Source of the DNA: Aquabacterium sp. OR-4 | Lineage (GTDB): Bacteria > Pseudomonadota > Gammaproteobacteria > Burkholderiales > Burkholderiaceae_C | DNA: 64,000 nt | Direction: 5' to 3' | NCBI RefSeq assembly: GCF_025290835.2 | Contig: NZ_JAOCQD020000001.1 | Span: 682,001 to 746,000 of the forward strand | Shown: piece after piece, positions 10,715 through 28,300 of the stretch | Numbering within the stretch: position 1 is the first letter of the stretch | How the letters are laid out: every line of letters begins with the position of its first letter | Made by a program: the position numbers and the translations under genes | Notes under the pieces: generated by a model | Databases searched by the model: none | What the model was told of the DNA's origin: nothing | The model's input: the letters and a program-made list of their open reading frames with translations, nothing else

Positions 10715-13095
10715 CAGGCGGCTCCCACCACTTTCTGCAGCAGGCCTTCGGTCTGCCGCTCCAGCTTCAGGATGTCCTCGCGGATCTCTGCCAGCGTCCG
10801 CATGGGCACCGGCTTGTAGAAGTAGCGCGCAAACGAGACCTCGTAGCCGATCTTGGTGGCGGTCATGTCGATCCAGGCATCCGATGCATGGGGCAACACC
10901 TCACGCTGAAAGAAGGCCTCGATGCCGCCCACCTCGGTCAGCGGCACCTGCTCGGTGTCGCGCAGGTCGGTGTCGGGCTCGTACTCCACCATGGTGCGGC
11001 CCTTGCCATCCTGCTCCAGGTAGGCACCGTCAAAGCCGGGCTCGAAATGGTCGCTGGCTTTGAGCTTGGTGCGCTTGGCGATGACCGGCGGCGCCATCTC
11101 GTCACGCCAGCTCACGGCACGGTAGATCAGCTTCTTGTCGGGGGCGCTGATCTTCTGGCCTGCTGCCTTTATCGCCGCCTCGAACTTGGCGCGAAAGTCG
11201 TTGTGGTCGTCGAACACGTCTTCACCCAGGGCCTTCTGGGCAAGCCGCGCCAGGTCCACCAGCTGCTTGTCGCGGGCCCAGGCGTTCGGGTCCAGCAGCT
11301 TCTTGCGACGCTTCTCGGGCACAGCCTTGCGCGCGGGTTTGGCCTCGCCGTCGTCCTCGGCTTCGTCGTCATCGTCGTCCGAGCCGCCCTCGTCGCCCTT
11401 TAGCCAGGCCTCCATCTCGGGCTTGAGCTTGTGGAACTCAGTGTAGAGCTTCTCGCCCCAGCGGCCGTGGGCCTCGGTGCGCAAGGCTTCGTCACCCGAT
11501 GCGAAGCGCAGGGCTTCGATGGCACGATGGCTGAGCTGGCTCTTCAGGCGCTGCGGGCGCTCGACCGTGATCTTCCAGTATCCGAAGTCGGCGTTGTTGA
11601 ACCACTTGCATTCCGGCCTGGCGGCGGCGGCTTCAGCGTCTGCAGGGGGCTGGGCCAGGTAGTGGTCCATCACGCGCTGGATGTCGTCCTTCGACATCTC
11701 GCAGTTCTTCTTGCCCAGGTTGCGCCGCAGCGGTTGCAGCCAGCGGCTGGCATCGATCAGCTGCACCTTTCCGCGCCGGTGCTCGGCCTTGCGGTTGGTG
11801 AGCACCCAAACGTAGGTGGCGATGCCGGTGTTGTAGAAGATGTTCAGCGGCAGGGCGATGATGGCTTCCAGCCAGTCGTTCTCGATCACCCAGCGGCGGA
11901 CGTTGCTCTCGCCCTGGCCAGCGTCGCCGGTGAACAGTGCCGAGCCGTTATGGACCAGCGCGATGCGGCTACCCAGCTCGGTGTTGTGCACCATCTTCTG
12001 GACCTTGTTGACCAGGAACATCAGCTGGCCGTCGCTGGAGCGCGTGATCAGCTTGAATTCCGGGTCACCGCCGTGCTTGACGATGAAACGCGGGTCGCTG
12101 AACTCCTTCTTGCCGCCCAGGCGGGCCAGGTCGGTCTTCCAGCTCTTGCCATAGGGCGGGTTCGACAGCATGAAGTCGAAGTCGCGCGACGGGAACTGGT
12201 CGGCCGACAGGGTGGACTTGTCGGCGCCGCCGACGATGTTCTCGGCCTCTGCACCTTCGCCCTTCAGCAGCAGATCGGCCTTGCAGATGGCGTAGGTCTC
12301 GGGGTTGATCTCTTGCCCAAAGAGATGGATGGATACCTCTTTGCCATGGTCCTTGGCCAGTTCCAGCAAAGCCTCTTCCGCCACCGTCAACATGCCGCCC
12401 GTGCCGCAGCAGCCGTCGTACAGCGAGTAGGTGCTGGACTGGATCTTGTCGGCCACCGGCAGGAACAGCAGCTTGGCCATCAGGCTGACCACGTCACGCG
12501 GGGTGAAGTGTTCGCCGGCCTCTTCGTTGTTCTCTTCGTTGAAGCGCCGGATCAGCTCTTCAAACACCGTGCCCATGCCGTGGTTGTCCAGGCCTGGCAG
12601 GCGCACGCGACCATCCTCGTCCAGCACGTCCTTGGGCGACAGGTTGACTTCGGTGTTCATGAAGTCGCTGATCAGGTGGCCCAGGATGTCGGCTTCCACC
12701 AGCGTCTGGATCTGATCGTGGAACTTGAACTTGGTCAGGATCTCGCGCACGTTGGGCGAGAAGCCATCCAGGTAAGCGATGAAGCTGTCGCGCAAGCGTT
12801 GCCCACTGGCAATGGCTTGCAGGTCGGCCAGCGTGGTGGCTGCCGTGTTGTAGAAGGCCTGGCCAGCTGCGCTGCGCAGCGCGCCATCCTGGTTGGCGAC
12901 CTGGGCGGCATCCAGCTGCTTCTTCATCGCCAGCACGGCTTGCTTGGTGGGCTCCAGCAGCGCATCCAAACGGCGCAGCACGATGAAGGGCAGGATCACG
13001 TCGCGGTACTTGCCGCGCACATAGACGTCACGCAGTCGGTCGTCTGCGATGTTCCAGATGAAGTCGGCGATCCACTTGAGTTGCGATTGGTCCAT
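10714..13095 (-). CDS. hsdM: type I restriction system adenine methylase subunit M
   Basis: The modification subunit, 793 residues, which N6-methylates adenine in the host target. The start MDQSQLKWIADFIWNIADD matches the family's N-terminal HsdM domain; upstream in-frame ATGs were rejected. The SAM-binding region GCCGTGGML lies near residue 226 and the catalytic NPPYG near residue 312. The C-terminal part is longer than in EcoKI-type HsdM and carries an acidic low-complexity stretch (GGSDDDDDEAEDDGE) before the last helices. It is the first large gene of the hsdM-hsdS-hsdR-RT operon. Two tiny genes and two hairpins lie upstream. Confidence 0.95.
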   Translation of the reverse strand: MDQSQLKWIADFIWNIADDRLRDVYVRGKYRDVILPFIVLRRLDALLEPTKQAVLAMKKQLDAAQVANQDGALRSAAGQAFYNTAATTLADLQAIASGQRLRDSFIAYLDGFSPNVREILTKFKFHDQIQTLVEADILGHLISDFMNTEVNLSPKDVLDEDGRVRLPGLDNHGMGTVFEELIRRFNEENNEEAGEHFTPRDVVSLMAKLLFLPVADKIQSSTYSLYDGCCGTGGMLTVAEEALLELAKDHGKEVSIHLFGQEINPETYAICKADLLLKGEGAEAENIVGGADKSTLSADQFPSRDFDFMLSNPPYGKSWKTDLARLGGKKEFSDPRFIVKHGGDPEFKLITRSSDGQLMFLVNKVQKMVHNTELGSRIALVHNGSALFTGDAGQGESNVRRWVIENDWLEAIIALPLNIFYNTGIATYVWVLTNRKAEHRRGKVQLIDASRWLQPLRRNLGKKNCEMSKDDIQRVMDHYLAQPPADAEAAAARPECKWFNNADFGYWKITVERPQRLKSQLSHRAIEALRFASGDEALRTEAHGRWGEKLYTEFHKLKPEMEAWLKGDEGGSDDDDDEAEDDGEAKPARKAVPEKRRKKLLDPNAWARDKQLVDLARLAQKALGEDVFDDHNDFRAKFEAAIKAAGQKISAPDKKLIYRAVSWRDEMAPPVIAKRTKLKASDHFEPGFDGAYLEQDGKGRTMVEYEPDTDLRDTEQVPLTEVGGIEAFFQREVLPHASDAWIDMTATKIGYEVSFARYFYKPVPMRTLAEIREDILKLERQTEGLLQKVVGAA

Positions 13096-13171
13096 GTTCT
13101 TGTTGTGATGCGTTCTGGTGCTGCCGGTGACCGAATTCTTGTTGCGTGGGCCGAGCCCTTGCACATAAAGA

Positions 13172-13192
13172 GAGCCCGCATGACGCGGGCTC
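13172..13192 (-). repeat. hairpin between the second tiny gene and hsdM
   Basis: A perfect 8-bp inverted repeat (GAGCCCGC / GCGGGCTC) encloses the 5-base loop ATGAC (plus strand). It follows the stop of the 51-residue gene by 24 bp on the minus strand and lies about 77 bp ahead of the hsdM start. No T-run follows, so it is more likely an RNA-processing or attenuating hairpin than a simple terminator. It shares its loop with the hairpin at 13407-13437. Confidence 0.6.
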
Positions 13193-13215
13193 CGGTTCAA
13201 AGAGTTGCTGTGAAA

Positions 13216-13742: not shown

Positions 13743-14984
13743 TCAAGCTGGTTGGGCAAGCTCCTGCAGTTGGTCAGCAAACAGTCGACGCACATCTGAC
13801 TTGATGCTGCTGAGCAGGCGCCAGTTGCCTGCTTCAAAGCGAACGCGCCCGGCCACGATGGCGGGGTGAATGCGCAGCTTGTCCGCCAAGGCCATCGCGG
13901 CCTCCATCGTCGGCTCTGCGGTCAACCCCGAGGCAAGCCATTCGGCCTGTGGGATCAAGATGTCCCGAGCGCCGTCGTCGGCCTCGCGTTCTTCCTGGGT
14001 CTGTTGATGGACCTTGTCTTCGAGGTTGTCTGCGATGAACCAGTGATCCGGACCCAGGTGTCTTTGGATGTGCACCAGTTCGTGCAGCAACGCGAACCAG
14101 AAATTGTCGAGCCGGTCGTGTCTCAGGGTCAGAGCCACCACGGGGAGATCGCCATCGAACATGGCGGCACCATCGAGGTATGTCTTGCTGAAGTGTTCTT
14201 CGAACACCAGGGCAATGCCCATGTCGGCCAGGAACTCCTGCGCCAACCGCGGCCCTTGTTCGAACCGCGACAGGCGAGCCAGCTCGCGCAGGCGTTCCTC
14301 GGTCAGGCTGCCCTTCACGTATGCCGACTTGAGCTTGAGTTGGCGGGCCTTCTTGAGCGCCGCCACATACCAGGTCAAAAGGCCGTACTCGTCCATCAGG
14401 CGGCTTCCGCTCTGGTGCATCGGGGCGCGCAGCCGCGCTTGGTGGATCGGCAGCAGGTTGAAGCCGCGCATGAAGCCGCGGATCAATTCTTCCGTCTTGT
14501 CCTTGGCTTCTCGGAGGGTGCCGCTGAAGCCTTCGAAGTACCCGCGGGCGAACATCTCCTTGAAGGGGAACTTGGCCGTGTCATAGGGGAGCGCCTCGTC
14601 CAGATCCACTGCATCATCGGTTTGCGCCAGCAACACATCAGCCGCGATGCCCAGGCCCTGATGCAGTTTTCGGATCATGGCAAGGTTGAGCGGGCGCTTG
14701 CGCGCGAGCACCTCGGACACCTTGGGCAGAGAGCCCATGTAGGGCACCAAATCCACCTTCTTGAGGCCGAGCTGGTCCATGCGAAACAGGATGGCTTCGA
14801 TCGGGTCGAGCACCACGGGCTCGACCTTGCTGCGCTCGTAAGACTCGATGACCAGGGCCAGCAATTCCAACTCGGCTTCCTTGCTGGAACCCGGCGTCAC
14901 GTCTTCATCCATCAAAGCCGACAGACGAACGATCGCCGCATCGTAGTCACGCTGCGTCTTGATCACTTTCACCTGTTGCTTCAT
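13743..14984 (-). CDS. higA: HigA-type antitoxin fused to ImmA/IrrE metallopeptidase
   Basis: A 413-residue protein. Residues about 60 to 110 hold an Xre-type helix-turn-helix (LGLKKVDLVPYMGSLPKVSEVLARK) like HigA antitoxins. The C-terminal half is an ImmA/IrrE peptidase with HELVHIQRH (HExxH zinc site) near residue 301 and a downstream EREADDGARDIL that supplies the third ligand. The start at 14984 was chosen for AAGGAACGG upstream. It lies 29 bp after higB on the same strand. HigA antitoxins are usually about 100 to 150 residues, so this is a long, possibly self-cleaving or DNA-damage-responsive version. Neutralising HigB is inferred from gene order. Confidence 0.85.
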   Translation of the reverse strand: MKQQVKVIKTQRDYDAAIVRLSALMDEDVTPGSSKEAELELLALVIESYERSKVEPVVLDPIEAILFRMDQLGLKKVDLVPYMGSLPKVSEVLARKRPLNLAMIRKLHQGLGIAADVLLAQTDDAVDLDEALPYDTAKFPFKEMFARGYFEGFSGTLREAKDKTEELIRGFMRGFNLLPIHQARLRAPMHQSGSRLMDEYGLLTWYVAALKKARQLKLKSAYVKGSLTEERLRELARLSRFEQGPRLAQEFLADMGIALVFEEHFSKTYLDGAAMFDGDLPVVALTLRHDRLDNFWFALLHELVHIQRHLGPDHWFIADNLEDKVHQQTQEEREADDGARDILIPQAEWLASGLTAEPTMEAAMALADKLRIHPAIVAGRVRFEAGNWRLLSSIKSDVRRLFADQLQELAQPA

Positions 14985-15013
14985 GTCCGTTCCTTTCATG
15001 TGCTGCGTCCGAC

Positions 15014-15298
15014 CTAGAACTTCTGCTTGTCGTACTCAGCATGCGTGCCAACCCACTCGATCAGGATCAAGCCGTTTTGGTACTTGGCCTTGATGACCAG
15101 TCGATAGGTGTTGCCCTTGATGTTGAAGATGACCTTGTTGTCTGCCAGGATGCTGGCGTTGGGATAACGGGTCTTGACGTCCTGTGGGCCGGCCCATTGA
15201 GCACGCTCGGCCTCCGAGCGCCACGCGTCGAGCGGCCCACGTGCGTCAGCATGTTTGCGCTTGAAGTCGTCCAGCTTGATGAGGCCAAGTAGCTGCAT
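15014..15298 (-). CDS. higB: HigB-family mRNA interferase toxin
   Basis: A 94-residue ribosome-dependent mRNA endonuclease by family. The sequence runs from an N-terminal helix (LIKLDDFKRKHADARGPLDAW) through the core DVKTRYPNASILADNKVIFN, with GNTYRLVIKAKYQNGLILI as central strands, to the C-terminal GTHAEYDK typical of this family. The toxin gene comes first and the antitoxin second, the higBA order. A good sigma-70 promoter lies just upstream. Length and motifs look complete, so the module may be active. Confidence 0.92.
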   Translation of the reverse strand: MQLLGLIKLDDFKRKHADARGPLDAWRSEAERAQWAGPQDVKTRYPNASILADNKVIFNIKGNTYRLVIKAKYQNGLILIEWVGTHAEYDKQKF

Positions 15299-15849: not shown

Positions 15850-16482
15850 TCACTGGGTGGTGACGATCGTGACGCGGCGGTTCTCGGGCGCGTCGGCCTT
15901 CTGTGCGTTGAGCAGCTCGCTGGCACCCTTGCCCACCGACGACAGGCGCTCGGGCAGCACGCCCAGCTTGGTGGTGAGGTAGCTCACCACGGCCTGCGCG
16001 CGCTCGGCCGAGAGCTTCTGGTTGAGCTCGTCACCGCCGCGCGGGTCGGCATGGCCTTCCACGCGGAAGCCGAAGCCGGCCAGGCGATCGGACTGCAGCG
16101 CCTTGGCCACCTTCTCGAGCACCGCCACGGTCTCGGGCGTGATGTCGGACGAGCCGGTGGCAAAGGTGATCAGCAGGCTGGCCTTGCCCGGGCCGGGCGG
16201 CTTGGCCGGCACGCCAGGGCGCATCGACGGCCGGATGGCGCGGGTGGCGCCGCTGGCGGCGGCCGATGCGGCCGGCGCGATCTCGAGCGCGTCGACCAGC
16301 GCGTCTTCGGTCACTTGTGCGGCCTTGAGCAACGGGGCGGCCGGCGCGGTTTGGGCGGTGGCAGGCAGTGCGGCGCACAGGGCCAGCGCGGCGGCCGTGG
16401 CCAGGCGCGCGGCGGTCAGGCCGGCGCGGGCCTTGGCGCCGTGCTGGGGCCGATGGGGCCGATGGGGGGCGGCGAAGTTCAT
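15850..16482 (-). CDS. OmpA-like peptidoglycan-binding protein, third gene of the tps operon
   Basis: A 210-residue exported protein. A signal peptide spans about residues 1 to 45, ending ALPATAQ with no lipobox cysteine. An Ala/Pro-rich linker follows, then an OmpA C-terminal domain from about residue 95. Its core GHADPRGG...LSAERAQAVVSYL holds the conserved Asp and Arg that bind the peptide of peptidoglycan. No beta-barrel is present, so it is a periplasmic cell-wall anchor. AGGAG precedes the ATG. It follows the TPS-caspase gene after 95 bp on the same strand and may fix the secreted protein or its pore to the wall. Confidence 0.88.
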   Translation of the reverse strand: MNFAAPHRPHRPQHGAKARAGLTAARLATAAALALCAALPATAQTAPAAPLLKAAQVTEDALVDALEIAPAASAAASGATRAIRPSMRPGVPAKPPGPGKASLLITFATGSSDITPETVAVLEKVAKALQSDRLAGFGFRVEGHADPRGGDELNQKLSAERAQAVVSYLTTKLGVLPERLSSVGKGASELLNAQKADAPENRRVTIVTTQ

Positions 16483-16577: not shown

Positions 16578-19500
16578 TCATCGGGTCAGGCGCTCCTCGA
16601 GGCGACGCTGCTCGAACAGGTAGTCGGCACCCGCTTCGTGGCCGCCGTCGCGTGCGGCACCGTACTGCGGGCGTTGCGGCAGCTGGCGCGCCACGTCGAA
16701 GCGGATCTGCTCGAACAGCGAGCTGCCCGGCTTCCAGCTCGACACCTGGCCCAGCGTCTGCATCAGGCTCCAGGCAAACGGCGAGTGGCCGTTCTTGCCC
16801 GAGTCGAACACCGGCTCGTTGCCGCCCGACGACATCACCACCGCGGCGCGGCGCGCCAGCAGGGCGCTGGCGTCCTGGCTGCCGGTGCCAGTGCCGGTGC
16901 GGATGCGCTCGTTGCTGACCAGGCTGCCCGAGAAGCAGCTGTCGGAGATCATCGCCACCTGTTGCGCCGGCAGCTGGCGCAGCAGCTTGCCGATGTCGGC
17001 GTTGGAGATCCAGGTCTCGGGGCGCGCGGCGTCGGCATCGGCCGGTTGCCAGTAGCCCTGGCCGGTTTTCTCGATCAGCTCGCCGTGGCCGGCGTAGTAC
17101 AGCACCACCGAGTCTTCGGGGCCGACGGTGAACTGCAGCTGGTTCAGCGTCTGGTACAGCATGGCCCGGCTGGGGTTCTCGAGCACCAGGGTCTCGTAGC
17201 CCAGGTTGGTTTCGAGCGAGGCGGCCACCGCCCGTGCATCGCCCACTGCGTTGGACAGCCGCGGGATGCGCGCATCGCTGTACTGGTCGATGCCCACCAG
17301 CACGGCGATCTTGCGCCGGATCTGCGGCAGCGCGGCGCTCTTGACCGCGCGCGCCGACAGCAGGCGCGCGCCCGGCACATTGGCCATCACCGGCGTCACG
17401 GTCACGGCGCCGGCCGGCGTCGCCGCTGCGGCCACGGGGGCGGCCGGCGCTGCGGCCGCCACCGCCGGTGTGGCGCCGCCTGTGGCGGCACCCGGGCCGG
17501 TGCCCGCGGTGGGTGCGGCGGGGGCCACCGGCGCGGCCGACGGCACCGGCATCGGCAGCTGCTGCACCACACGCGCCGGCGCGCCGCCGGCCGGCGACAA
17601 GCCGGCCAGTGGCGAGAACATCAGGCACTGGCCCGAGGCCGCCTGCTCGGCGGTGGCGCAACCCGGGGCGTCGGCCAGGCCCGGGTTCTGCTCGAGGCGG
17701 TTGATGGCCTGGGCGAACACGCTCTTCTTGTACTGCTCGCGTGCGGTCAGCACCGCAGCAATGGTGTCCTTGGACATGCTGTCCAGGTCGAGGCTGGCAA
17801 AGGCGCGGCGCTCGCCGCTGCCGGCCGGCGCCACCACCTGCACGGCATCGAGCGTGCGGCCCTCGGTGGCCGAGCTGGTGGTGGCCGGTATCAGCACCGC
17901 CACCACGGCGGTCTGGGCGATCTTGGGGGTGTCGGTCACCACCGGGGGCACGACCACCGGCGCGTCGATGGCCAGCGCCACGGCATTGCCCGCGGCCTGC
18001 TCGAAGCTGTAGTTGGCCGCGCTGAGGCCGCTGCCGGTGATGGCGTAGCGGCCCGGCGCCGCGCTGGTGGCGGTGCTGGTGCCGAACTGCAGCGTGCCGG
18101 TGGTGGCGCTGGCCAGGCTTTCTTCGCCGACCAGGCCGCTCACGCTGCCGGTCAGTGCGGGCAGGGTGCCGCCCTGCACCACGCTCACCCGGTCGGCCAC
18201 GTAGCGCAGCGTGGCCGGGGTGATGGCGGCGCTGCTGCTCAGGCTGCCCTGCTCGCTGTCGAGGCGGTAGTTGGCGGCGTCGCTGCCGGTGAGGCTGAAG
18301 CTGCTCAGCGTCACGGCCTTGGCGCTGCCCACGCCGGCGGTGTCGAAGCGGCCGGTGGCCAGGCCGCTGACCGAGTCGCCCTCGATCACGCCGGTCAGGC
18401 TGACGCTCTGGGCGCTGGCGGCGGTGCCGCCGTCGTACACCTTGCTGGCGGCGGTGGCCGCGCCCACCTGCAGCGTGCGCGGGCTGATGCTGGCCGTGGC
18501 CGTGGCGCTGTCGAGGGTGTAGTTGCCGGCGTCGGCGCCGCTCAGCAGCAGGTTGCCGAGCTGCACGGTCTTGCCGCTGCCGACGTTCTTGTCGATGAAG
18601 GCGGCGCTGCCGGCGCTGGCCATCACCGCGTCTTCACCCAGGACCCCGCTGAGCGTGAGCGACTGGCCCGGCGTGGCGCGGGTGCTGCCGTCGTAGACCT
18701 TGTCGCTGGCCGTGCCCACGGCGCTCAGCGCCAGCGGCGTGATGCTGGCGGTGGTGGTGGCCGTGCTGGTGCTCAGGCTGTAGTTGCCCGCGTCGGCACC
18801 GACCAGCGTGAAGCCGGTGACCGTGACCAGCTTGTCGCGGCCCACATGCCGGTCGGCAAAGCTGCCGCTCATGCCGGCCAGCGCCACGGTGTCGCCTTCC
18901 ACCGGGCCCGACAGCGTGCCGCCGGCCAGCAGGGCACTGGCGTTGCCGTCGTAGACCTTGCCGATGGCGTTGACCGCGGCCACGGTGATCGGCTTGGGCG
19001 TGATGCTGCCCACCAGGCTGCTGCTGTCGATCGACACGCCGTACACCGGCGCGCCCTGCGCATCGACAAAGCCGGTGCCGGTCATCACCAGCGACATCGG
19101 GATGTCGCTGCCGACATGGCGGCTGTCAAGCACCAGCGAGCCGGTGTAGGCCAGGCCGTCGCGCAGGCCGCTGAGCGAGCTGCCGGCGTCGGCCAGATTG
19201 ACCGCGGTGCTGCCGTCGTACACGCGGCTGTACGGGCTGCTCAGGCCCAGCGTCGGCTGGCTGCTGAACAGGAAGCCGTTGCCGCTTTCGGCCGGGTCGG
19301 CCGCGCCATAGCTGGCCCCGTACTGGCGGAAGCTGGCCTGCAGCGCGCCGTTCTGGAAGGCGTAGCCGTCGCCCAAGGCGGCTGAATCCCAGGCATAGAC
19401 CAGCCAGCGGCCGTTGGGCGCCGACAGCGCCTCGCTGCCCGACTGGTTGAAGAAGCCGATCACGCTGCCGCCGGTGCCCTCTTGCACCAGGCTGGCCGAG

Positions 19501-22442
19501 CGGTCGGCCCGGCTGCCCTGCGAGAAGCTGAAGCCCAGCACCGTGATGGCGGTGCCGGTGGCGCTGGACTGCACGCTGGCATTGGCGCCCAGGCCCAGGT
19601 TGCTGGCCTGGATGGTGATGGCGCCACCGGCGCTCAGCGTGGTGGCGCCGGCGCCGGCGGCGGCCTGGCCATCGGCCTGGCTGGCGGCCAGGGCGCGGCG
19701 CGTGCCGCGGGCCACACCGCCTTCCACTTCAAGCTGGTCGTCGTTGTCGTCGTTGCTGATCAGGCTGCTGTCGAAGTTGCCGATGATGGCCGTGGGGGCG
19801 CTGATGTCCAGCGTGGTGTTCTCGCCGAAGGCCAGGCGCGTGGCCTGGCCCAGGCTGCCGATGGTCAGCACGTTGCCGCGCAGGCTCACGCTGCTGGCAT
19901 TGCCGCTGAGGTGCGCGGCCTCGATCGACAGCGTGCCGCCGGCGGTGATGGCCAGGCTGCGGCCGCTGCCGGCCACGATCTCGCCGCCGATGCTGATGCC
20001 GGTGTCGCCGTCGATCTGCAGCGCGCCGCCCAGGCTCATGTCGAGCGACGCCGGGGCACTGCTGGCCAGGTAGACGGCCAGGTCCTCGCTGCCGCCCGAC
20101 AGCGCGCGGCCGGTCAGTGTGACCGGGGCGCCACCCAGGGCCACCAGCTTGCCGCTGGCGCCGCGCAGGCCCAGGCCAAAGCGGGTGAGCGTGGGCGTGT
20201 CGTCGTCGTTGGACGAGCTGCGGTCCAGCACCTCGCCGGTGATCGCGGCGTAGGCTTCGGCATTGCCGTCGGCCGTGCCCACCTGCACCGGCGCCAGGAT
20301 GTCCACGCCAGCCGGCAGGCTGGCCAGCCGGTAACGGCCCGAATAGGCGCCGCCGTCAACCACCAGGCGCTCGCTGGCGCTGACCAGCCCGCCGGCCAGC
20401 TTGACGCCGGTGCGCATGCCGTCGCCGTCGGAATCGACCGTGCCCAGCAGCCGGATGCGGCGTGCGCTCAGCGTGCTGGCATCGACGATGGCCACGCCGT
20501 TGGTGTCGCCGCTGCTGACCTGGCTGTGGCCGATGATGCTGATCGTGCCGCTGCCGGCGTCGAGCGCCGAGGCCGCCACCGACACACCGTCGCGCAAGCC
20601 GCTGGCATCGGTGGCCAGGGCGCCGGCCACGCCGGTGAAGCTGCTTTCGCAGGCGTTCGGTCCGCAGCTGGTCACGCTGCCGCCGAGGCTGATGTCGCCG
20701 CCCGCCGACACCAGCGTGGACGAGCGCACCGCGATGGCCCCGGCCTGGCCCGAGCGGCCGGCGCTCAGGCTCAGGTTGAGCGCGGCGCCTTCGCTGCGGA
20801 TGGTGCTGCGGTCGATGGTGATGTTGTTGTCGGCCAGCAGGGTCAGGCTGACCGCGGTGCCGGCGGCCGGCTTGATGGTGGCGTTGATGACGCTGATGTT
20901 GCCGTCGTCCTCGCCGCCCTGGCCGGTCTGCACCACCACGTTGTTGCCGGCGTTCAGCGCCGCCACCAGGGTGGCCGTGCTCAGCAGGCCGGGGCTGCCG
21001 GTGCTGGTGAAGCTGGGGCCGTTGCTGATCCGGGTGTCATTGCCCTCGTCGCTGATGATCAGGTCGTAGGGGTCGAGCAGCCAGCGGCCGGCCTGGCCGG
21101 CCGGCGCATCGGCGCGCACCGCCAACGGCCGGGCGTCCAGCCAGCCGCCCGAGGTTTCGATGAAGCCGCCATTGCCGCCCAGGGCGCCACCGCGCGCGCT
21201 CAGCGTGCCGTAGCTGCGGTTGGCCTGGGTGCCCCACAGCACCACGCTGCCGCCCTGGCCCAGGCCCAGCGCGTCGGCGGCCACCGTGGCGCCGGGGGCC
21301 ATGAACACCGCCTGGGCATTGCGCAGCCGCGCATCCTGGCCCTGCACGCCACCGCCCACCAAGGCCGTGCCGCCGCCGGTCTGGCCCGACACATCCACCC
21401 GTGCGCCGTCGAGCAGGCCCACCTGGTGGCCCAGCAGCGTGGCGCTGCCGCCCAGGCCGCTGCTGCCGGTGGCCTCGATCGTGCCGGCCACCAGCAGCGT
21501 GCCGGCCGCGCCGGCGTCGATCTGGATCTGGCCGCCGCTGGCGCCGCTGGCGCTGGTGCGGCTGCCGGCCGACAGGTTGACCGCCTGCGTGCCGGCCAGC
21601 AGCACGCTGCCGCCGCTGCCCAGGCTGTCGGCGCGCACGATGCCCTGCTGGTTGACGATGGCCGCCTGCAGGTCGATGCGCCCGCCGCTGGCCAGGGCCT
21701 GGCCCAGGTTCAATACCTCGCCCTGCGGCGCGCTGACCTGCATGGCCAGGTTGGGCAGGCCGGTGTCGGCCAGTGTGGCGGTGGCGCCCGCGGCCAGCAG
21801 CACCTGGCCGCCCGGGGCCTCGATCAGGCCCTCGTTGCGCACACCGCTGACGCCCAGCAAGATCACCTGGCCACCGGTGCTGCTGCGCAGCTCGCCCTGG
21901 TTGATCACATCGGCCTGGCCGCTGGCGCCGAAGCCGGCCGGCGCGAACAGGTTGTAGCGCCGCGGGGCCCAGTCGGCGTCGGACATGGCCAGCGTGGAGG
22001 CCACCAGGCCGGCCACGTCCACCCGGGCGCCCTGGCCGAACAACACGCCATTGGGATTGAGCAGCCACACCTGGCCATTGCTGGTGAGGCTGCCGAAGAT
22101 CTGCGACGGATCGCTGCCGGTCACGCGGTTGAGCACCCGGCTGGCGGCACTTGGCTGCACAAACTGCACGGCCTGGCCGCTGCCGATCGAGAACTGCTGC
22201 CAGTTCAGGATGGCGTTGGCGCTGTTGGTCACGGTCATGCGCTGGCCGTTGACGGTGGCACTGGCCTGGCCCTGCACCACCTGCAGGCCGCTGGGCAGCA
22301 CGGCGGCGGGGCCGGCGGCCTGCAGCGACAGCGTGGCAAACAGGCCGGCGGCGGCCAGCGCCAGCGGGCGCAGGGCCGGCAGCATGGCGTGGCGGGCACG
22401 CGCGCTGCGGCGCTTGGGGGCGGATGGAAGCGGGAGGTTCAT
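16578..22442 (-). CDS. TpsA exoprotein with YDG/MBG repeats and C-terminal caspase-like protease
   Basis: A 1954-residue surface protein. A long signal sequence is followed by a filamentous-hemagglutinin TPS domain (about 30-300, with QVWLLNPNGVLFG, the NPNG signature). A beta-helix region runs to about residue 1000. Four YDG-type repeats begin near 1075, 1162, 1248 and 1335, each with VYDG, then an MBG-like unit near 1400-1490. An Ala/Pro linker leads to a caspase p20 domain from about 1708: KIAVLVGIDQY, then YYAGHGE with His1786 and ISDSCFSG with Cys1836. The His-Cys spacing of 50 fits an active dyad. The TpsB gene lies 40 bp upstream. GGAG stands 10 bases before the ATG. Caspase fusion to a TpsA adhesin is the odd feature; its target is unknown. 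Confidence 0.9.
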   Translation of the reverse strand: MNLPLPSAPKRRSARARHAMLPALRPLALAAAGLFATLSLQAAGPAAVLPSGLQVVQGQASATVNGQRMTVTNSANAILNWQQFSIGSGQAVQFVQPSAASRVLNRVTGSDPSQIFGSLTSNGQVWLLNPNGVLFGQGARVDVAGLVASTLAMSDADWAPRRYNLFAPAGFGASGQADVINQGELRSSTGGQVILLGVSGVRNEGLIEAPGGQVLLAAGATATLADTGLPNLAMQVSAPQGEVLNLGQALASGGRIDLQAAIVNQQGIVRADSLGSGGSVLLAGTQAVNLSAGSRTSASGASGGQIQIDAGAAGTLLVAGTIEATGSSGLGGSATLLGHQVGLLDGARVDVSGQTGGGTALVGGGVQGQDARLRNAQAVFMAPGATVAADALGLGQGGSVVLWGTQANRSYGTLSARGGALGGNGGFIETSGGWLDARPLAVRADAPAGQAGRWLLDPYDLIISDEGNDTRISNGPSFTSTGSPGLLSTATLVAALNAGNNVVVQTGQGGEDDGNISVINATIKPAAGTAVSLTLLADNNITIDRSTIRSEGAALNLSLSAGRSGQAGAIAVRSSTLVSAGGDISLGGSVTSCGPNACESSFTGVAGALATDASGLRDGVSVAASALDAGSGTISIIGHSQVSSGDTNGVAIVDASTLSARRIRLLGTVDSDGDGMRTGVKLAGGLVSASERLVVDGGAYSGRYRLASLPAGVDILAPVQVGTADGNAEAYAAITGEVLDRSSSNDDDTPTLTRFGLGLRGASGKLVALGGAPVTLTGRALSGGSEDLAVYLASSAPASLDMSLGGALQIDGDTGISIGGEIVAGSGRSLAITAGGTLSIEAAHLSGNASSVSLRGNVLTIGSLGQATRLAFGENTTLDISAPTAIIGNFDSSLISNDDNDDQLEVEGGVARGTRRALAASQADGQAAAGAGATTLSAGGAITIQASNLGLGANASVQSSATGTAITVLGFSFSQGSRADRSASLVQEGTGGSVIGFFNQSGSEALSAPNGRWLVYAWDSAALGDGYAFQNGALQASFRQYGASYGAADPAESGNGFLFSSQPTLGLSSPYSRVYDGSTAVNLADAGSSLSGLRDGLAYTGSLVLDSRHVGSDIPMSLVMTGTGFVDAQGAPVYGVSIDSSSLVGSITPKPITVAAVNAIGKVYDGNASALLAGGTLSGPVEGDTVALAGMSGSFADRHVGRDKLVTVTGFTLVGADAGNYSLSTSTATTTASITPLALSAVGTASDKVYDGSTRATPGQSLTLSGVLGEDAVMASAGSAAFIDKNVGSGKTVQLGNLLLSGADAGNYTLDSATATASISPRTLQVGAATAASKVYDGGTAASAQSVSLTGVIEGDSVSGLATGRFDTAGVGSAKAVTLSSFSLTGSDAANYRLDSEQGSLSSSAAITPATLRYVADRVSVVQGGTLPALTGSVSGLVGEESLASATTGTLQFGTSTATSAAPGRYAITGSGLSAANYSFEQAAGNAVALAIDAPVVVPPVVTDTPKIAQTAVVAVLIPATTSSATEGRTLDAVQVVAPAGSGERRAFASLDLDSMSKDTIAAVLTAREQYKKSVFAQAINRLEQNPGLADAPGCATAEQAASGQCLMFSPLAGLSPAGGAPARVVQQLPMPVPSAAPVAPAAPTAGTGPGAATGGATPAVAAAAPAAPVAAAATPAGAVTVTPVMANVPGARLLSARAVKSAALPQIRRKIAVLVGIDQYSDARIPRLSNAVGDARAVAASLETNLGYETLVLENPSRAMLYQTLNQLQFTVGPEDSVVLYYAGHGELIEKTGQGYWQPADADAARPETWISNADIGKLLRQLPAQQVAMISDSCFSGSLVSNERIRTGTGTGSQDASALLARRAAVVMSSGGNEPVFDSGKNGHSPFAWSLMQTLGQVSSWKPGSSLFEQIRFDVARQLPQRPQYGAARDGGHEAGADYLFEQRRLEERLTR

Positions 22443-22482: not shown

Positions 22483-24168
22483 TCAGAAGCTGGCGCCGAG
22501 CGAGACATGGCCACGCCAGTCACCGCGCTGGGTGCTGGCGGCGTCGTCGAAGGCCTGGGCGGCGGCCAGGCGCAGCTGCACCGGGCCCCAGCCCAGGCGC
22601 AGGCCCACGCCGGCCGAGCTGAGCGTGCAGCGGGTCTTGCCGGGGCGGCACAGGGTGTCGGCCTGGTTGTCGATCTGGCCGGCATCCACAAAGCCCAGCA
22701 GGCGCAGGTCGGCGTCGGGGCCCAGCCAGCCGAGCTTGGGCGTGCTGAGCTCGAGCGAGGCCTGCAGGCCGCTGTCGCCCGACAGCTCACGCTCGTGGTA
22801 GCCACGCACCGAGGCGCCGCCGCCAATGCCGAACTGCTCGCCGGGCACCAGCGGGTCGTTGGCCAGCTGAGCCGACATGCGCCCGCCCAGCGCCCAGTCT
22901 TCGAACACCGGCAGGCTCAGGTTGGCGGTGGCGCGCAGCACGGTGTAGCGGCGCTTGGCGCCGGGCCGCACCGCGTCGAAGGCGGCGGCTTCGCCATGCT
23001 TGCCGCCCAGGCCCAGGTTGTGCGCCAGGCCCAGGCTGGCGCCGGCGCTCAGCGCGCCCGAGCGCTGCACGCTGTACTCGGCGGTGAGCGGGTGCACGGT
23101 CACGCTCTGGCCGGCGGTGCCGCAGGCGCCGTCGGGCAGGCCGTCGATGCCGCAGCTGTTGAGGTAGGCGCGGTACTCCAGGCCCACGCTCAGGCGCTGG
23201 TCGAACTCGCCCAGGCGGGGCAGGTACCACTGGGTGCGCGCGCCGGCGATGCGGCCCTTGCCGGCAAAGCGCAGGCCGCCCGCGGCCGTGGACTGCACGC
23301 CACCATCGACGTTGGAGTAGGCGCCGAACAGGTCCAGCGCCGCCAGCATCGACACCAGCGGCAGACGGTAGCCGCCGCTCAGCACCTTGACCTTGGCCGG
23401 ATCGGTGGGCGAGGTCTGGGCCTGCACGCTCAGCACATCGTCATGGCCGGTGATGTCGCTGTGCTGCCAGCCCAGGCTGACCCGCCAGTCACCGGTGCGC
23501 TCGTTGCCGGTGTTGTCGAGGCCCAGGTTCCAGCGCGTGACCGCCTGCTCGTCGACCTTCAGCGTGGCCTCGACCTGGCCGGGTTCGGCACCCGGGGCCA
23601 GCAGCACGCCGAGCTGGCGGCCGGGGTTCTCGTTGGCCAGCTGCAGTTCGCGGTCGATGCGCTGCAGCCGCGGCGTGCTGCCGCTCACCAGGGCCGGCAG
23701 TGCGGCGCGTGCGCGCTCGGCCGACAGGCGCTTGTGGCCCTGCACCGTCAGCTTGGCCAGCTTGCCTTCGAGCACGGCGATGGTCACCACGCCGTCCTTC
23801 ACCGGTTGCGGCGGCAGGTAGGCCACCACCGCGCCGAAGCCGGCCGCGCCGTACAAGGCCTGCACCGCCTCGGCGGCGCGCTTGAGCTCGCTCAGGCTGC
23901 GCTGGCCGCGATAGGGCTCCAGCGTGGTCTTGATCAGGCCGGCATCGAGCAGCGTGTTGCCCTCGATCCAGAAGCCGTTGACCTGCACGGTGGCTTCGGC
24001 GGCCGGGCTCGCGCCGGCGGCGGTGGCCTGCGCCTGGGTTGGAGATGGGGTCTGGGCCTGAACCCTGGCCGCACCGCCGACGGCGCAGACCAGGATGCAG
24101 GCCATGGCCACCGGCCAGCGGGGCATGCGCAGGGCCTGGGGCTTGGCTGGTTGGGGTTGCCGCAACAT
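22483..24168 (-). CDS. TpsB-type outer-membrane transporter (ShlB/FhaC/HecB family)
   Basis: A 561-residue two-partner-secretion pore. The signal peptide (about 1-38) ends in RVQAQ. POTRA domains cover about 60-210 (VNGFWIEGNTLLDAG and LAKLTVQGHKRLSAERA). The rest is a 16-strand beta-barrel ending in the typical C-terminal strand VSLGASF with a terminal Phe. A VRGYHE motif near residue 460 is the conserved VRGY tetrad that pins loop L6. GGAGG precedes the ATG. It is first in the order tpsB-tpsA-ompA, so it should export the caspase-bearing TpsA protein. Confidence 0.93.
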   Translation of the reverse strand: MLRQPQPAKPQALRMPRWPVAMACILVCAVGGAARVQAQTPSPTQAQATAAGASPAAEATVQVNGFWIEGNTLLDAGLIKTTLEPYRGQRSLSELKRAAEAVQALYGAAGFGAVVAYLPPQPVKDGVVTIAVLEGKLAKLTVQGHKRLSAERARAALPALVSGSTPRLQRIDRELQLANENPGRQLGVLLAPGAEPGQVEATLKVDEQAVTRWNLGLDNTGNERTGDWRVSLGWQHSDITGHDDVLSVQAQTSPTDPAKVKVLSGGYRLPLVSMLAALDLFGAYSNVDGGVQSTAAGGLRFAGKGRIAGARTQWYLPRLGEFDQRLSVGLEYRAYLNSCGIDGLPDGACGTAGQSVTVHPLTAEYSVQRSGALSAGASLGLAHNLGLGGKHGEAAAFDAVRPGAKRRYTVLRATANLSLPVFEDWALGGRMSAQLANDPLVPGEQFGIGGGASVRGYHERELSGDSGLQASLELSTPKLGWLGPDADLRLLGFVDAGQIDNQADTLCRPGKTRCTLSSAGVGLRLGWGPVQLRLAAAQAFDDAASTQRGDWRGHVSLGASF

Positions 24169-24395
24169 GGCGCCTCCGCTCCGATTTGTTTCGATTCGTG
24201 CGAATGGTAGGCCGAGAGGGGCGGCGGTCGTCACCTTATGCCCGTGATCGGGGGTGCGCAATCCCGAACACTGTGGACAGGCCGCCACGCCCTGGCCTGC
24301 AGGCCGGTTCGGGCCGGACCGGCGGCCGCTGCCGGCCAAGCGCTTACCATCGCGCCAGCCCCACCGCCATCGACTGCCCGCTCCGGGCGCCCGCC

Positions 24396-26435
24396 GTGAG
24401 CAACACGCCCCCCGATCCGTCACGCCCGTCCGCGCCCACCCAGGTCGACCCCTTCATGCAGCGCCCGCTCGATGCGGGCGGCAGCTCGGGCAATGCCTTG
24501 CCGGTGGGCACCTACCTGGGCGAGTTCGAGCTGCTGGGCGTGGTGGGCGAGGGCGGTTTCGGCATCGTCTACCGCGCCTGGGACCACTCGCTCAAGCGCC
24601 AGGTGGCGGTGAAGGAGTACATGCCCTCGGCCATTGCGCTGCGGGTGGGCAGCGGGGCGCAGGTGCAGGTCAAGAGCGAGCGCCATGCCGAGACCTTTGA
24701 CGCCGGCCTCAAGAGCTTCGTCAAAGAGGCGCAGATGCTGGCGCAGTTCGACCACCCGGCGCTGGTCAAGGTGTACCGCTTCTGGGAGGCCAACGGCTCG
24801 GCCTACATGGTGATGCCGTTCTACGAAGGCGTCACGCTGCGCGACCTGCTGCGCACGCGCAGCGAGCGGCCCGACGAGGCCACCATCCTGGGCTGGATCG
24901 GCCCGGTGGCCGACGCACTGGCGGTGATCCATGCCGAGCAGTGGTACCACCGCGACATCGCGCCCGACAACATCATGCTGCTGGCCGGCACCGGCCGGCC
25001 GCTGCTGCTCGACTTTGGCGCGGCGCGGCGGGTCATCGGCGACATGACGCAGGCGCTGACCGTGATCCTGAAACCCGGTTACGCCCCGGTGGAGCAGTAC
25101 GCCGAGGTGCCGGGCATGAAGCAGGGCCCGTGGACCGATGTCTACGCGCTGGCCGCGGTGGCGCACTTTGCGGTGCGCGGGCGCACGCCGCCGCCGTCGG
25201 TGGGCCGTCTGCTGAACGACAGCTACGAGGCACTGGCCGGTGCCGCCTCGGGCCTGGCCGGCCGCTTCAGCGAGCGCTTTCTGGCGGCCATCGACCGCGC
25301 GCTGGCGGTGCGGCCCGACCAGCGCACGCCCGATGTCGGCACCTTCAAGCGCGAGCTGGGCCTGGGCGAGGCACCGGTGGCGCCGATGGCGGCCGCGGCC
25401 ACGGCCCTGCCGCCGGGCCATGCGGCCCGCGGCAGCGATGGTGGCGCGGCCAGTGGCTTGGGCGTGCCGCTGCCGGGGGTGGCCACTGGCATGCCCACCC
25501 AGGCCGCGCTGGCGCCCACCGTGGCCGCCGGGCCGGTCACGGCCCTGCCGCCCACGGTGGTGATGCAGACCCCGCCGCCGGCGCATGCCGCGGCGCGGCC
25601 CGGCGGCCAGGCCGCCGCCGAGCCCGAGCCCGCGCCCGGCAGGGCCGCCGCCCGCCTGCCGGTGGCGGGCCTGGCCGCTGCCGCGCTGCTGCTGGCCGCC
25701 GGCGGTGCCTGGTGGGCGCTGCGGCCGGCCGCGCCGGTGGCCGGTGGGGCCGTGGCGGTGCCGGCCAGCACGGCAGGGCCGGCGCAGGCCGCGCCCGTGG
25801 CGCCACCTGGCGCGACGGCGGCCGGGGCTGAATCAACCGCTGCAGCGACCAATGCGACAAATCCGGCCAATTCGGCCAATGCAGGACAGGCGGCCAATGC
25901 GGCGCCCGCCGCTGCCGGCTTCGACATCGCGGCCGAGTTTGCCCGCGTGATGCAGGCGCAGACGCCGGGCTACGGCCTGGACGTATCGCTGGAAAAAAGC
26001 AGCCTGCGCATCGACCGCGACAAGCTGAGCTTTACCGTGCGCTCGTTGCAGGAAGGCCATGTCTATGTCTTCTACAACGGCGCCGACGGCCAGCTGCAGC
26101 AGCTCTATCCGAACGGCCTCACGCCGGCACCGCGCATCGCCAAGGGCGGCACGCTGAAGCTGCCGCAGGGCCGGCTCGACTTCAACGTGGCCGGCCCGGC
26201 CGGCGTCAGCCGCCTGCTGGTGATGGTGAGCCGCTGGCCACGCGACCATGGCGAGTACGGCCCGCGCGAGGACAACGGCTTTCGCAGCTTTCCCACCGGG
26301 GCGGCTGCGGCTGCCAAGCAGGCCGCGCACCGCGGCCCGCTGCCGCTGCTGGCCGGCAATGCGCAGTGCCCGCCGGGCGGCACCTGCGAAGACGCCTTTG
26401 GCGCCGCGATGACCACCTTCGACGTGGTGCCCTGA
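24396..26435 (+). CDS. transmembrane Ser/Thr kinase with C-terminal DUF4384 domain
   Basis: A 679-residue protein from a GTG start; an ATG at 24456 is the alternative. The kinase domain runs from about residue 42: GEGGFGIVY (P-loop), VAVKEYMP (Lys), HRDIAPDN near 185 and DFGAARRVIGD. The usual Lys two residues after the catalytic Asp is Ala. An Ala/Pro linker leads to one membrane helix (VAGLAAAALLLAAGGAWWAL, about 422-444). Beyond it is a DUF4384-type domain (about 510-660, with KLSFTVRSLQEGHVYVFY and LLVMVSRWPRD). The kinase is thus cytosolic and DUF4384 periplasmic. It is divergent from tpsB. DUF4384 often occurs with caspase domains, which supports a link to the neighbouring TPS-caspase. 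Confidence 0.88.
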   Translation: MSNTPPDPSRPSAPTQVDPFMQRPLDAGGSSGNALPVGTYLGEFELLGVVGEGGFGIVYRAWDHSLKRQVAVKEYMPSAIALRVGSGAQVQVKSERHAETFDAGLKSFVKEAQMLAQFDHPALVKVYRFWEANGSAYMVMPFYEGVTLRDLLRTRSERPDEATILGWIGPVADALAVIHAEQWYHRDIAPDNIMLLAGTGRPLLLDFGAARRVIGDMTQALTVILKPGYAPVEQYAEVPGMKQGPWTDVYALAAVAHFAVRGRTPPPSVGRLLNDSYEALAGAASGLAGRFSERFLAAIDRALAVRPDQRTPDVGTFKRELGLGEAPVAPMAAAATALPPGHAARGSDGGAASGLGVPLPGVATGMPTQAALAPTVAAGPVTALPPTVVMQTPPPAHAAARPGGQAAAEPEPAPGRAAARLPVAGLAAAALLLAAGGAWWALRPAAPVAGGAVAVPASTAGPAQAAPVAPPGATAAGAESTAAATNATNPANSANAGQAANAAPAAAGFDIAAEFARVMQAQTPGYGLDVSLEKSSLRIDRDKLSFTVRSLQEGHVYVFYNGADGQLQQLYPNGLTPAPRIAKGGTLKLPQGRLDFNVAGPAGVSRLLVMVSRWPRDHGEYGPREDNGFRSFPTGAAAAAKQAAHRGPLPLLAGNAQCPPGGTCEDAFGAAMTTFDVVP

Positions 26436-26843: not shown

Positions 26844-28154
26844 TCAGGGCAGTTCGATGTCGGGTGGCGCGCTGATCACCGGCAGCGGCGCGGTCACCTG
26901 GGCCCAGGCCGCGGCGGGCGTCGCCGGCTCGGGCGGGCGGCTGGGGCGCTGCACCGGCCAGGCGAAGAACTGGTAGACCTCGTCGGCGCGGGCCAGGGTG
27001 TCGGCCTCGCCCAGCGCCATCAGCTCCTTCGTGAACGGCGCCTCGAACAGCAGGTAGCTGGCCAGCGCGGCACCGCGCGCATCGGGCCCCACGCCGCCCA
27101 CGCCCACGCCGCGCAGCAGCGCACGCACGGGGGTGGGCAGGTTGTCGAGGTGGCGGGTGGCGATGTCGTCGATGCGCTGGCTGGGCGAGATCACCAGCGA
27201 CTCCAGCGGCCGCAGTGGCGTGTCCTGGCGCACGCTGTCGGGCAGCAGGGCCAGCGTGCGGTTGATGCGCTGCATGCGCTCGATGTCGACCGTGAGCGCA
27301 TCCAGAAAGATGCTCGACATGGCATGGCCGGCGATCTGCGCCAGGCTGGGGTAGTCGGCATCGGGATGGCGCGGCGCCTGGGCCGGCGGCTCGTGCATGC
27401 GGCCGGCGCCGATGATCAGCAGCCGTTCGGCGCCCAGGTGGATGGCCGGCGACAGCGGTGCGCTCTGGCGCATGCTGCCGTCGCCATACCAGCCGGCATG
27501 GCCGCCCGGCCCGGCCACGCGTGCGGCCGGAAAGATGAACGGGATGGCCGACGAGGCCAGCAGGTGCTCGATGCCGATCTGCTCGGTGGGCAGGGCGATG
27601 CGCTGCGAGCGCAGCCAGGGCTCGATGGGCTGCGCGGCGCTGTAGAAGGTGACGTGCTCGCCGGTGGAGTAGCTGGACGCGGTGACCGCCAGCGCGTGCA
27701 GCTGGCGCTGCTGCAGCAGCATCGGCAGGCGGTGCAGCGGCACGGCCTGCTGCAGCAGCTCGCCCAGCGGCGCGTTGTCGAGCAGCGAGCGCGGGCGCAG
27801 CTTGCGAAAGCGGGCGATCAGCCAGCCGGCCGACAGCATGGTGAGCCAGCGCGCGCCGGTGCGCAGCACGCCCAGGGCGTCGGCACGGTAGACCTGGTCG
27901 GCGCTGAAGTTCTCCCACACCCGGCCCAGTACCTCCACCGCGCCTTCAAAGCGGTCGGCATGGCAGGCCAGCGCGGCGGCATTGATGGCGCCGGCCGAGG
28001 TGCCGGTGATCACGCCGAAGGGGTTGGACAGCCGGGCGCGGTGGCCCAGGCGTTCGCGCCGCAGCCGTGCAATGGCGCGCAGCACGCCCACCTGGTAGGC
28101 GGCACGCGCGCCACCACCACTGAGCACCAGGCCGGTGAGCGGGGTTTCGACCAT
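26844..28154 (-). CDS. patatin-like phospholipase
   Basis: A 436-residue lipid acyl hydrolase. The oxyanion motif GLVLSGGGARAAYQVG is at the N-terminus, the nucleophile elbow GTSAG near residue 48, and the partner Asp in WYGDGSM near residue 230, so the Ser-Asp dyad is complete. There is no signal peptide, so it should act inside the cell or at the membrane inner face. A long C-terminal part (TLAL..., PVRALLRGVG...) fits the larger bacterial patatins with a DUF3336-free layout. The ATG at 28154 gives the standard short lead; an in-frame ATG 24 bp upstream is possible. Confidence 0.9.
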   Translation of the reverse strand: MVETPLTGLVLSGGGARAAYQVGVLRAIARLRRERLGHRARLSNPFGVITGTSAGAINAAALACHADRFEGAVEVLGRVWENFSADQVYRADALGVLRTGARWLTMLSAGWLIARFRKLRPRSLLDNAPLGELLQQAVPLHRLPMLLQQRQLHALAVTASSYSTGEHVTFYSAAQPIEPWLRSQRIALPTEQIGIEHLLASSAIPFIFPAARVAGPGGHAGWYGDGSMRQSAPLSPAIHLGAERLLIIGAGRMHEPPAQAPRHPDADYPSLAQIAGHAMSSIFLDALTVDIERMQRINRTLALLPDSVRQDTPLRPLESLVISPSQRIDDIATRHLDNLPTPVRALLRGVGVGGVGPDARGAALASYLLFEAPFTKELMALGEADTLARADEVYQFFAWPVQRPSRPPEPATPAAAWAQVTAPLPVISAPPDIELP

Positions 28155-28300
28155 GCGCCTGACTGTATCCCGCGGCATTGCGCCAGGTGAGGGCGTATTG
28201 CATGCCTGGCGCGGCGGCGAGACGGCATCGGGCCGTTGGCCAGGGCGTCCGCACCGCCGCCAGGCGGGGGGCGCTTGTTCGTGAGCCCGGGGGGCAGCGG

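Follow-up and report, generated by a model that had tools for sequence, protein, structure and literature searches.

INTRODUCTION

Discussion of bacterial caspases has centered largely on roles in stress and cell death. Here, we analyze a gene that joins a domain of this kind to an exoprotein of the two-partner secretion (TPS) pathway: in a 64,000-nucleotide stretch of the Aquabacterium sp. OR-4 genome (contig NZ_JAOCQD020000001.1, positions 682,001 to 746,000; hereafter, the window), a TpsA-type exoprotein ends in a caspase domain. With the TPS exoproteins EtpA, FHA, and HMW1 it has in common the TPS domain, an adjacent TpsB gene, and a long repetitive body, and with orthocaspases and metacaspases (C14B) and the paracaspase MALT1 it shares p20 and p10 units in one chain, a His-Cys dyad, aligned S1 Asp residues, and the fold. 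Exported caspase domains, sometimes as the C-terminal-most domain, also occur among the polymorphic toxins described in the portion of Zhang et al. (2012) considered here (PMC3482391). In the corresponding portion of a 2016 Baltic Sea survey, the speculation was put forward that the metacaspases of betaproteobacteria help to degrade proteins outside the cell (PMC4933709), and another source gives 71 partner domain types, with “haemagglut” and “hemagglut” both absent from its main text, figures aside (PMC3501461). Among the top-ranked papers of full-text searches, which cover neither figures nor most subscription papers, we recognized no description of a TPS exoprotein with a caspase; an earlier mention is possible.

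RESULTS

A TPS exoprotein gene with a C-terminal caspase domain

The exoprotein is encoded on the minus strand by a frame of 1954 amino acids that runs from an ATG at 22442 to 16578, stop codon included (22442..16578); the automatic open reading frame list places its start at a TTG at 22826, within the TpsB gene, and the plus strand over 16578..22442 contains a stop in the frame read. The first-pass annotation, made from the sequence alone, had given this real frame with correct coordinates, leaving the minus strand unstated, and had placed in it a TPS domain, four YDG repeats, an MBG-like unit, and a caspase, an arrangement that is borne out by Pfam and by our reading of the frame. The matches for TPS, YDG, MBG_2, and Peptidase_C14 are all above their Pfam cut-offs.

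All parts of the protein lie on the minus strand. The TPS secretion domain (residues 47-224; 21771..22304) matches PF05860 (8.7e-32; 111.4 bits against a cut-off of 33.5) and NCBIfam adhes_NPXG (9.1e-26), and residues 33-668, the N-terminal third of the protein, match the solved TPS adhesin EtpA (8vba) at 4.8e-75. The putative beta-helix-like body (approximately residues 225-1060, the outer limit being approximate; 19263..21770) shares this similarity to EtpA as far as residue 668. It is followed by four YDG repeats (approximately residues 1066-1412; 18207..19247), which Pfam YDG matches in four stretches (5.5e-61) with motifs at 1073, 1162, 1248, and 1334, and by an MBG_2 domain (residues 1414-1486, the better of two stretches; 17985..18203; Pfam, 1.1e-12). 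Next comes a helical module (approximately residues 1548-1609; 17616..17801), supported by a Cys-pair pattern and a module profile, which holds Cys1595 and Cys1606, two of only 5 Cys residues in the whole exoprotein. A Pro/Ala-rich linker of low confidence in the structure model (approximately residues 1610-1704; 17331..17615) connects this module to the caspase domain (approximately residues 1705-1945; 16608..17330), which was delimited by Pfam, an AlphaFold model, and fold comparisons.

Directly upstream lies the gene of the TpsB transporter (22483..24168, minus strand; ShlB, 4.4e-29; POTRA_2, 1.1e-12), 561 amino acids long if translation begins at the ATG at 24168, the likely start within a longest frame of 22483-24423. 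Here and below, gene starts, signal peptides, and membrane segments were judged by eye. A spurious long frame in GC-rich DNA was considered and is ruled out by the four Pfam domains, the adjacent TpsB, and the conserved family described below.

The caspase fold appears complete and its catalytic site intact

Peptidase_C14 matches residues 1710-1927 at 1.1e-18 (68.2 bits against a cut-off of 21.4). The first-pass annotation had called for a structure prediction of this region, and the resulting AlphaFold model, together with fold comparisons with known caspase-type structures, gives a full caspase fold. The predicted dyad residues are exactly where they had been placed, His1786 in the motif YYAGHG (codon 17085..17087, minus strand) and Cys1836 in SDSCFSG (16935..16937, minus strand).

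To follow these positions through the family, we used a scan of a species-genome collection with two peptide patterns, which gave 355 pattern matches, 345 of them to relatives; the best 80 of these 345 are referred to as the public loci. The His motif is present in 80/80 public loci and the Cys motif in 78/80 by pattern, the other two reading DSCYAG, so that the Cys is found in all 80; conservation in this set is partly by construction, one of the patterns including both D1834 and the Cys. Because the search pattern holds the Cys, the count among 22 members found by Pfam or profile is the fairer test, and here both His and Cys are present in 22/22 (8 of these members share their contig with a public locus; 7 served as seeds of our alignment A1, alongside the closest member and the genome's second copy). 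D1735 and D1834 are likewise kept in all 22 profile-found relatives and in the 49 rows of a structural alignment, which consists of the window protein and 48 of the 80 public loci. In an alignment, the two residues coincide with Asp residues of metacaspase-4, at positions that presumably form an acidic S1 pocket for Arg or Lys.

By all sequence and model tests applied, the domain therefore looks like a competent enzyme. Pseudo-orthocaspases are known (PMC6426788, in the part considered), and the fold could in principle serve as an inactive binding or structural tip; given the retention of His and Cys in every motif-found and every profile-found locus, and of the S1 Asp residues in the same 22, we regard this as highly improbable.

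The fusion recurs across betaproteobacteria

TPS domain and caspase are found in one frame in 51 of the 80 public loci, a recurrence that speaks against a chance juxtaposition. Among the other 29, 27 frames run up to the start of the available sequence, which is either a contig end or the boundary of the retrieved region, and two (L118 and L145) are broken or short. The fused frames are 1269 to 3573 amino acids long, have TpsB directly upstream in 49 of 51 cases (the other 2 begin at the locus edge), and always carry the caspase at the C terminus, with 0-17 amino acids after the domain. The hosts of the relatives are mostly Burkholderiales, with further occurrences in Nitrosomonas, Nitrosospira, Gallionella, Rhodocyclaceae, and one Desulfobulbaceae bin; one more bin, labelled Chitinophaga, is probably misbinned. 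A more distant version is carried by four Azospirillum plasmid records, annotated as haemagglutinin N-terminal protein. One of these, WP_247894518.1 from an Azospirillum sp. B510 plasmid (L204; 1743 amino acids), has TPS and C-terminal caspase without the Cys pair, its single Cys being the catalytic one, and the 18.7 kb covered include no annotated TpsB. The first-pass annotation knew of no betaproteobacterial system of this kind: the combination is apparently undescribed, yet it turns up in numerous betaproteobacteria, as well as in a small number of other proteobacteria, and is not specific to this organism.

The caspase is also found on other carriers. Among 399 genomes of the order, we counted 15 occurrences of the family caspase (at least 250 bits) in 13 genomes, of which 8 hold a TPS-caspase, among them G000 with an intact and an interrupted copy, and 2 are cut at contig ends (G254 and G403), while in 4 places (G079, G406, G232, and the second in G341) the protein has a signal-peptide-like N terminus and no TPS domain. 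In a class sample of 323 genomes, one genome (G555) encodes two TPS-module-caspase proteins and another (G660) the signal-peptide-like form. The frames of this kind at L149, L150, L151, L162, and L167 are 365-718 amino acids long and comprise a signal-peptide-like N terminus, the Cys module, and the caspase, without TPS.

In a maximum-likelihood tree of 62 caspase domains, 44 TPS-borne and 5 signal-peptide-like members cluster together (100/100), apart from 13 other caspases of proteobacteria. Within this clade, 43 of the 44 TPS-borne caspases group together (96/87), L158 standing apart; this count includes L012, the second TpsB-TPS-caspase locus of the window's genome (G000 contig 2, 129640-140289), as TPS-borne although its two parts lie in separate open stretches. 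The cassette is thus one family, which was joined to TPS either twice, or once with subsequent loss.

A separate arrangement was seen in three genomes of the genus (L013, L058, and L067), where the stop of a giant TpsA frame (4028 to 5303 amino acids) overlaps the start codon of a second gene; the product of this gene is a caspase from a different clade, with a twin-Arg-like N-terminal leader by eye. These caspases were not picked up by the family profile.

The caspase is the most conserved part of the exoprotein

We compared the parts of the exoprotein with those of three relatives. The caspase is 83, 73, and 71% identical, the TPS domain 74, 70, and 66%, the Cys-pair module 82, 60, and 65%, and the helix 56, 46, and 47%. 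In two of the three pairs, the module falls below the TPS domain (60 and 65%, compared with 70 and 66%), and we therefore reserve the rank of most conserved part for the caspase. The ratio of nonsynonymous to synonymous substitution (dN/dS) follows the same order, with 0.44, 0.53, and 0.37 for the caspase, 0.62, 0.58, and 0.60 for TPS, and 0.99, 1.01, and 0.88 for the helix, values by the Nei-Gojobori method that are rough in GC-rich genes and serve for comparison between parts only.

This is the opposite of what is expected of a polymorphic toxin. With its TPS architecture and the C-terminal position of the caspase, the protein could be a contact-dependent inhibition (CDI) toxin that delivers the caspase, like CdiA-CT, into competitors, and caspase toxins have been proposed for other export routes (PMC3482391, in the portion considered). 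A tip of that kind would be polymorphic, whereas here it is the best-kept part in three pairs of relatives, and 43 of the 44 TPS-borne sequences belong to a single clade; moreover, an OmpA-like gene comes next, and we recognized no candidate immunity gene directly downstream, although one may lie elsewhere. We thus consider a CDI-type toxin very unlikely, and the “protease weapon” of the first-pass annotation, if meant in the CDI or polymorphic-toxin sense, is not supported for the same reasons.

A Cys-pair module and a linker precede the caspase

All 97 family frames in which 90 or more amino acids are available ahead of the caspase (75/75 public and 22/22 others) show a Cys pair there by the loose pattern C-x4-14-C, some contigs being counted twice among the 97. 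A profile of the module finds 15 matches in 13 of the 399 genomes of the order, each just upstream of a family caspase, and these pair one-to-one with the 15 caspases of at least 250 bits in the same 13 genomes. For our alignments A2, A3, and A4, rows were selected by a pattern requiring the Cys pair, which 59 of the 80 loci matched, so the invariance of the pair there is by construction. A universal Cys pair can be rejected, as the Azospirillum relative lacks it and L158 gives only a weak module match. Searched alone against the PDB with Foldseek, the module has no match, a result that does not establish a new fold.

The model shows a disordered linker with basic residues close by (R1693, R1698, K1701, and R1709-K1711). 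In the structural alignment, where the window row begins at residue 1559 and lacks the first 11 module residues, an LPxIxRK-like motif is present in 48 of 49 rows, and 44 of these 48 have R or K within 14 residues before the motif; given the composition, such basic residues ahead of the caspase are a weak indication and no proof of a cleavage site.

These features bear on whether the caspase could be a maturation protease that acts in cis and has no external substrate, its cuts in the linker or body serving to release or mature the fibre. Caspase-like domains have been proposed as an autoprocessing device in polymorphic toxins (PMC3482391), and FHA is processed by a separate protease, SphB1 (PMC6070651), according to the portions of these sources considered here; the disordered linker and its flanking basic residues would fit as well. 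In polymorphic toxins, however, the processing caspase is usually upstream of the toxin domain (PMC3482391), whereas at most 17 residues follow it here, and the cassette also occurs on signal-peptide-like proteins that carry no TPS adhesin. The presence of the same cassette on such carriers argues that the protease, rather than adhesin maturation, is what is kept. Self-processing as the sole role is therefore a possibility that we find rather doubtful; the “self-processing adhesin” of the first-pass annotation may be right for one activity of the protein, but is less likely to be its whole function, as the cassette exists on smaller proteins without an adhesin to process.

Genes for envelope and phospho-signaling proteins recur near the fusion

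The next gene downstream in the window, 95 bases past the exoprotein stop, encodes an OmpA-like protein of 210 amino acids with a signal-like N terminus (15850..16482, minus strand). Its matches to OmpA-like representatives reach 139 bits, and one of these representatives scores 1.2e-20 with Pfam OmpA. Divergent from TpsB, on the plus strand, lies a Ser/Thr kinase gene (24456..26435, start by inspection; 659 amino acids) whose product has one membrane-like segment and a C-terminal DUF4384; in a longer frame (24039-26435), Pkinase matches at 1.9e-25 and DUF4384 at 9.4e-14. A kinase with DUF4384 is also present at L134. The OmpA-like gene, the divergent kinase gene, and the Cys-pair module had all gone unnoticed in the first-pass annotation.

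To see whether such neighbors are typical, we compared 12 TPS-caspase loci with 20 TPS loci without the family caspase, in stretches of at most 20 kb. The 12 cases include two loci from each of two genomes and so lack full independence, and the 20 controls were picked non-randomly by a rule of thumb (few contigs and room around the locus), with two of them (L187 and L202) shorter than 20 kb; 7 of the 20 have no family TPS profile match although Pfam TPS is there, and none has a family caspase. We searched for neighbors with representatives that came from the window or the case loci, a choice that could favor the cases. With these limits, an OmpA-like gene is present in 9/12 cases and 0/20 controls (Fisher p 8e-6). 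In 8 of these 9 cases it is located downstream and on the same strand, and in L180 it is approximately 9 kb upstream. A Ser/Thr kinase is present in 6/12 cases (p 0.001), a PP2C phosphatase in 4/12 (p 0.014), and a type VI secretion system (T6SS)-type FHA protein in 3/12 (p 0.044), each against 0/20 controls. Across the public loci, at least one of these four neighbor types was found in 36 of 80, as far as the flanks reach, and an OmpA-like gene in 32.

In eight loci (L098, L101, L111, L119, L127, L177, L178, and L182), TpsA-caspase is followed downstream by a T6SS-type FHA protein, a PP2C phosphatase, and an OmpA-like protein, and all of them except L127 also carry a Ser/Thr kinase. Another recurrent downstream set, comprising a small protein with a signal-like N terminus and CHASE2-type proteins, was observed in L113, L115, L130, L133, L137, and L141. 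TssA lies near 8 and TssB near 5 of the 80 public loci. A general dependence on a T6SS is ruled out by the absence of a TssB match in the genome and of TssA and TssB from all 12 case stretches; the former indicates that a T6SS is not required.

It is tempting to speculate that the caspase is the output of envelope phospho-signaling, in which the DUF4384 kinase, PP2C, T6SS-type FHA protein, and OmpA-like protein would control its export, activation, or release by a pathway related to the one that drives T6SSs. In that case, the cassette would serve as a general-purpose exported effector, brought to the envelope by a TPS stalk or a bare signal peptide, and the second caspase clade might likewise be used as a separate gene coupled to giant TpsA proteins. 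We put this forward as a tentative proposal that may well be wrong.

The same neighbors would also suit a caspase held in the periplasm, where TpsB transport pauses and the cassette acts on a signal, together with the OmpA-like partner, in surface shaving or an envelope response. The adjacent OmpA-like gene, its enrichment among the cases, and the DUF4384 kinases of the window and L134 would be accounted for, but OmpA-like genes are found in only 32 of the 80 public loci and the stalled state is hypothetical, making this an unlikely explanation.

Farther out, the window contains a patatin-like phospholipase frame beyond the kinase (26844-28820, minus strand; 3.7e-26), a HigB-type toxin (15014-15298, minus strand; 4e-28) beside a protein with a sub-threshold IrrE/M78 match (13743-14999, minus strand), and a type I restriction-modification set of R subunit, specificity subunit, and N6 methylase (6244-13200, minus strand).

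DISCUSSION

We consider it probable, though well short of certain, that the window encodes a type Vb (two-partner) exoprotein with an orthocaspase as its C-terminal effector, acting outside the cell or at the cell's own envelope. The catalytic site, as judged from sequence and model, is intact, and OmpA-like and kinase genes are recurrent neighbors. After Sec export, the protein would pass through TpsB, its beta-helix and YDG body forming a stalk of variable length, and the protease would fold outside or at the outer membrane. Its maturation would probably involve cleavage after Arg or Lys, either within the disordered linker or next to it, and the mature caspase would cut extracellular proteins or proteins at the cell's own envelope. 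The adjacent kinase may regulate the caspase in some members, including that of the window.

Several points weigh against this interpretation. Export of the C terminus is assumed, and the C-terminal part of some TPS proteins stays in the periplasm, which would suit the OmpA-like neighbor. The dyad geometry is judged from a global fold match and motif alignment, and we infer the preference for Arg or Lys from two aligned Asp positions. None of the four neighbor types was found in 44 of the 80 public loci, many of which have incomplete flanks, or in 3 of the 12 cases, the genome's second copy among them. They are also absent from the available flanks of the five signal-peptide-like relatives, suggesting that they go with the TPS form, or part of it, and not with the cassette itself. 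Finally, in the second copy a single stop codon breaks the frame between the TPS part and the caspase part, and at least one copy may thus be decaying.

If the exoprotein does carry a conserved caspase to the surface, this would give orthocaspases a testable extracellular role in many environmental betaproteobacteria, and the TPS pathway, a simple two-protein exporter, would gain a class of cysteine-protease effectors, with the kinase, FHA, PP2C, and OmpA neighbors suggesting a possible mode of regulation. The family would also be a concrete candidate for the extracellular metacaspases speculated about in the part of the Baltic Sea survey considered here (PMC4933709).

In comparison with known systems, the protein is a combination of two known kinds, a TPS exoprotein and an orthocaspase, that is widespread, apparently undescribed, and intact as far as sequence and model indicate. 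From other TPS exoproteins it differs by its caspase end, and the main text of an overview of type V passengers does not contain the word caspase (PMC6555100). For the polymorphic-toxin caspases, the portion of Zhang et al. considered here names T2SS, T7SS, PVC, and TcdB/TcaC as export routes and lists only HINT for T5SS (type II, VII, and V secretion systems; PMC3482391); unlike those toxins, the window protein has a conserved C terminus and no recognized immunity gene. The relation to NCBIfam caspase_w_EACC1 is weak, and membership was rejected at 66.8 bits, below the cut-off of 140. From orthocaspases, metacaspases, and MALT1, finally, the window caspase is set apart by its TPS carrier, by the Cys-pair module and linker that precede it, and by a family clade of its own (100/100).
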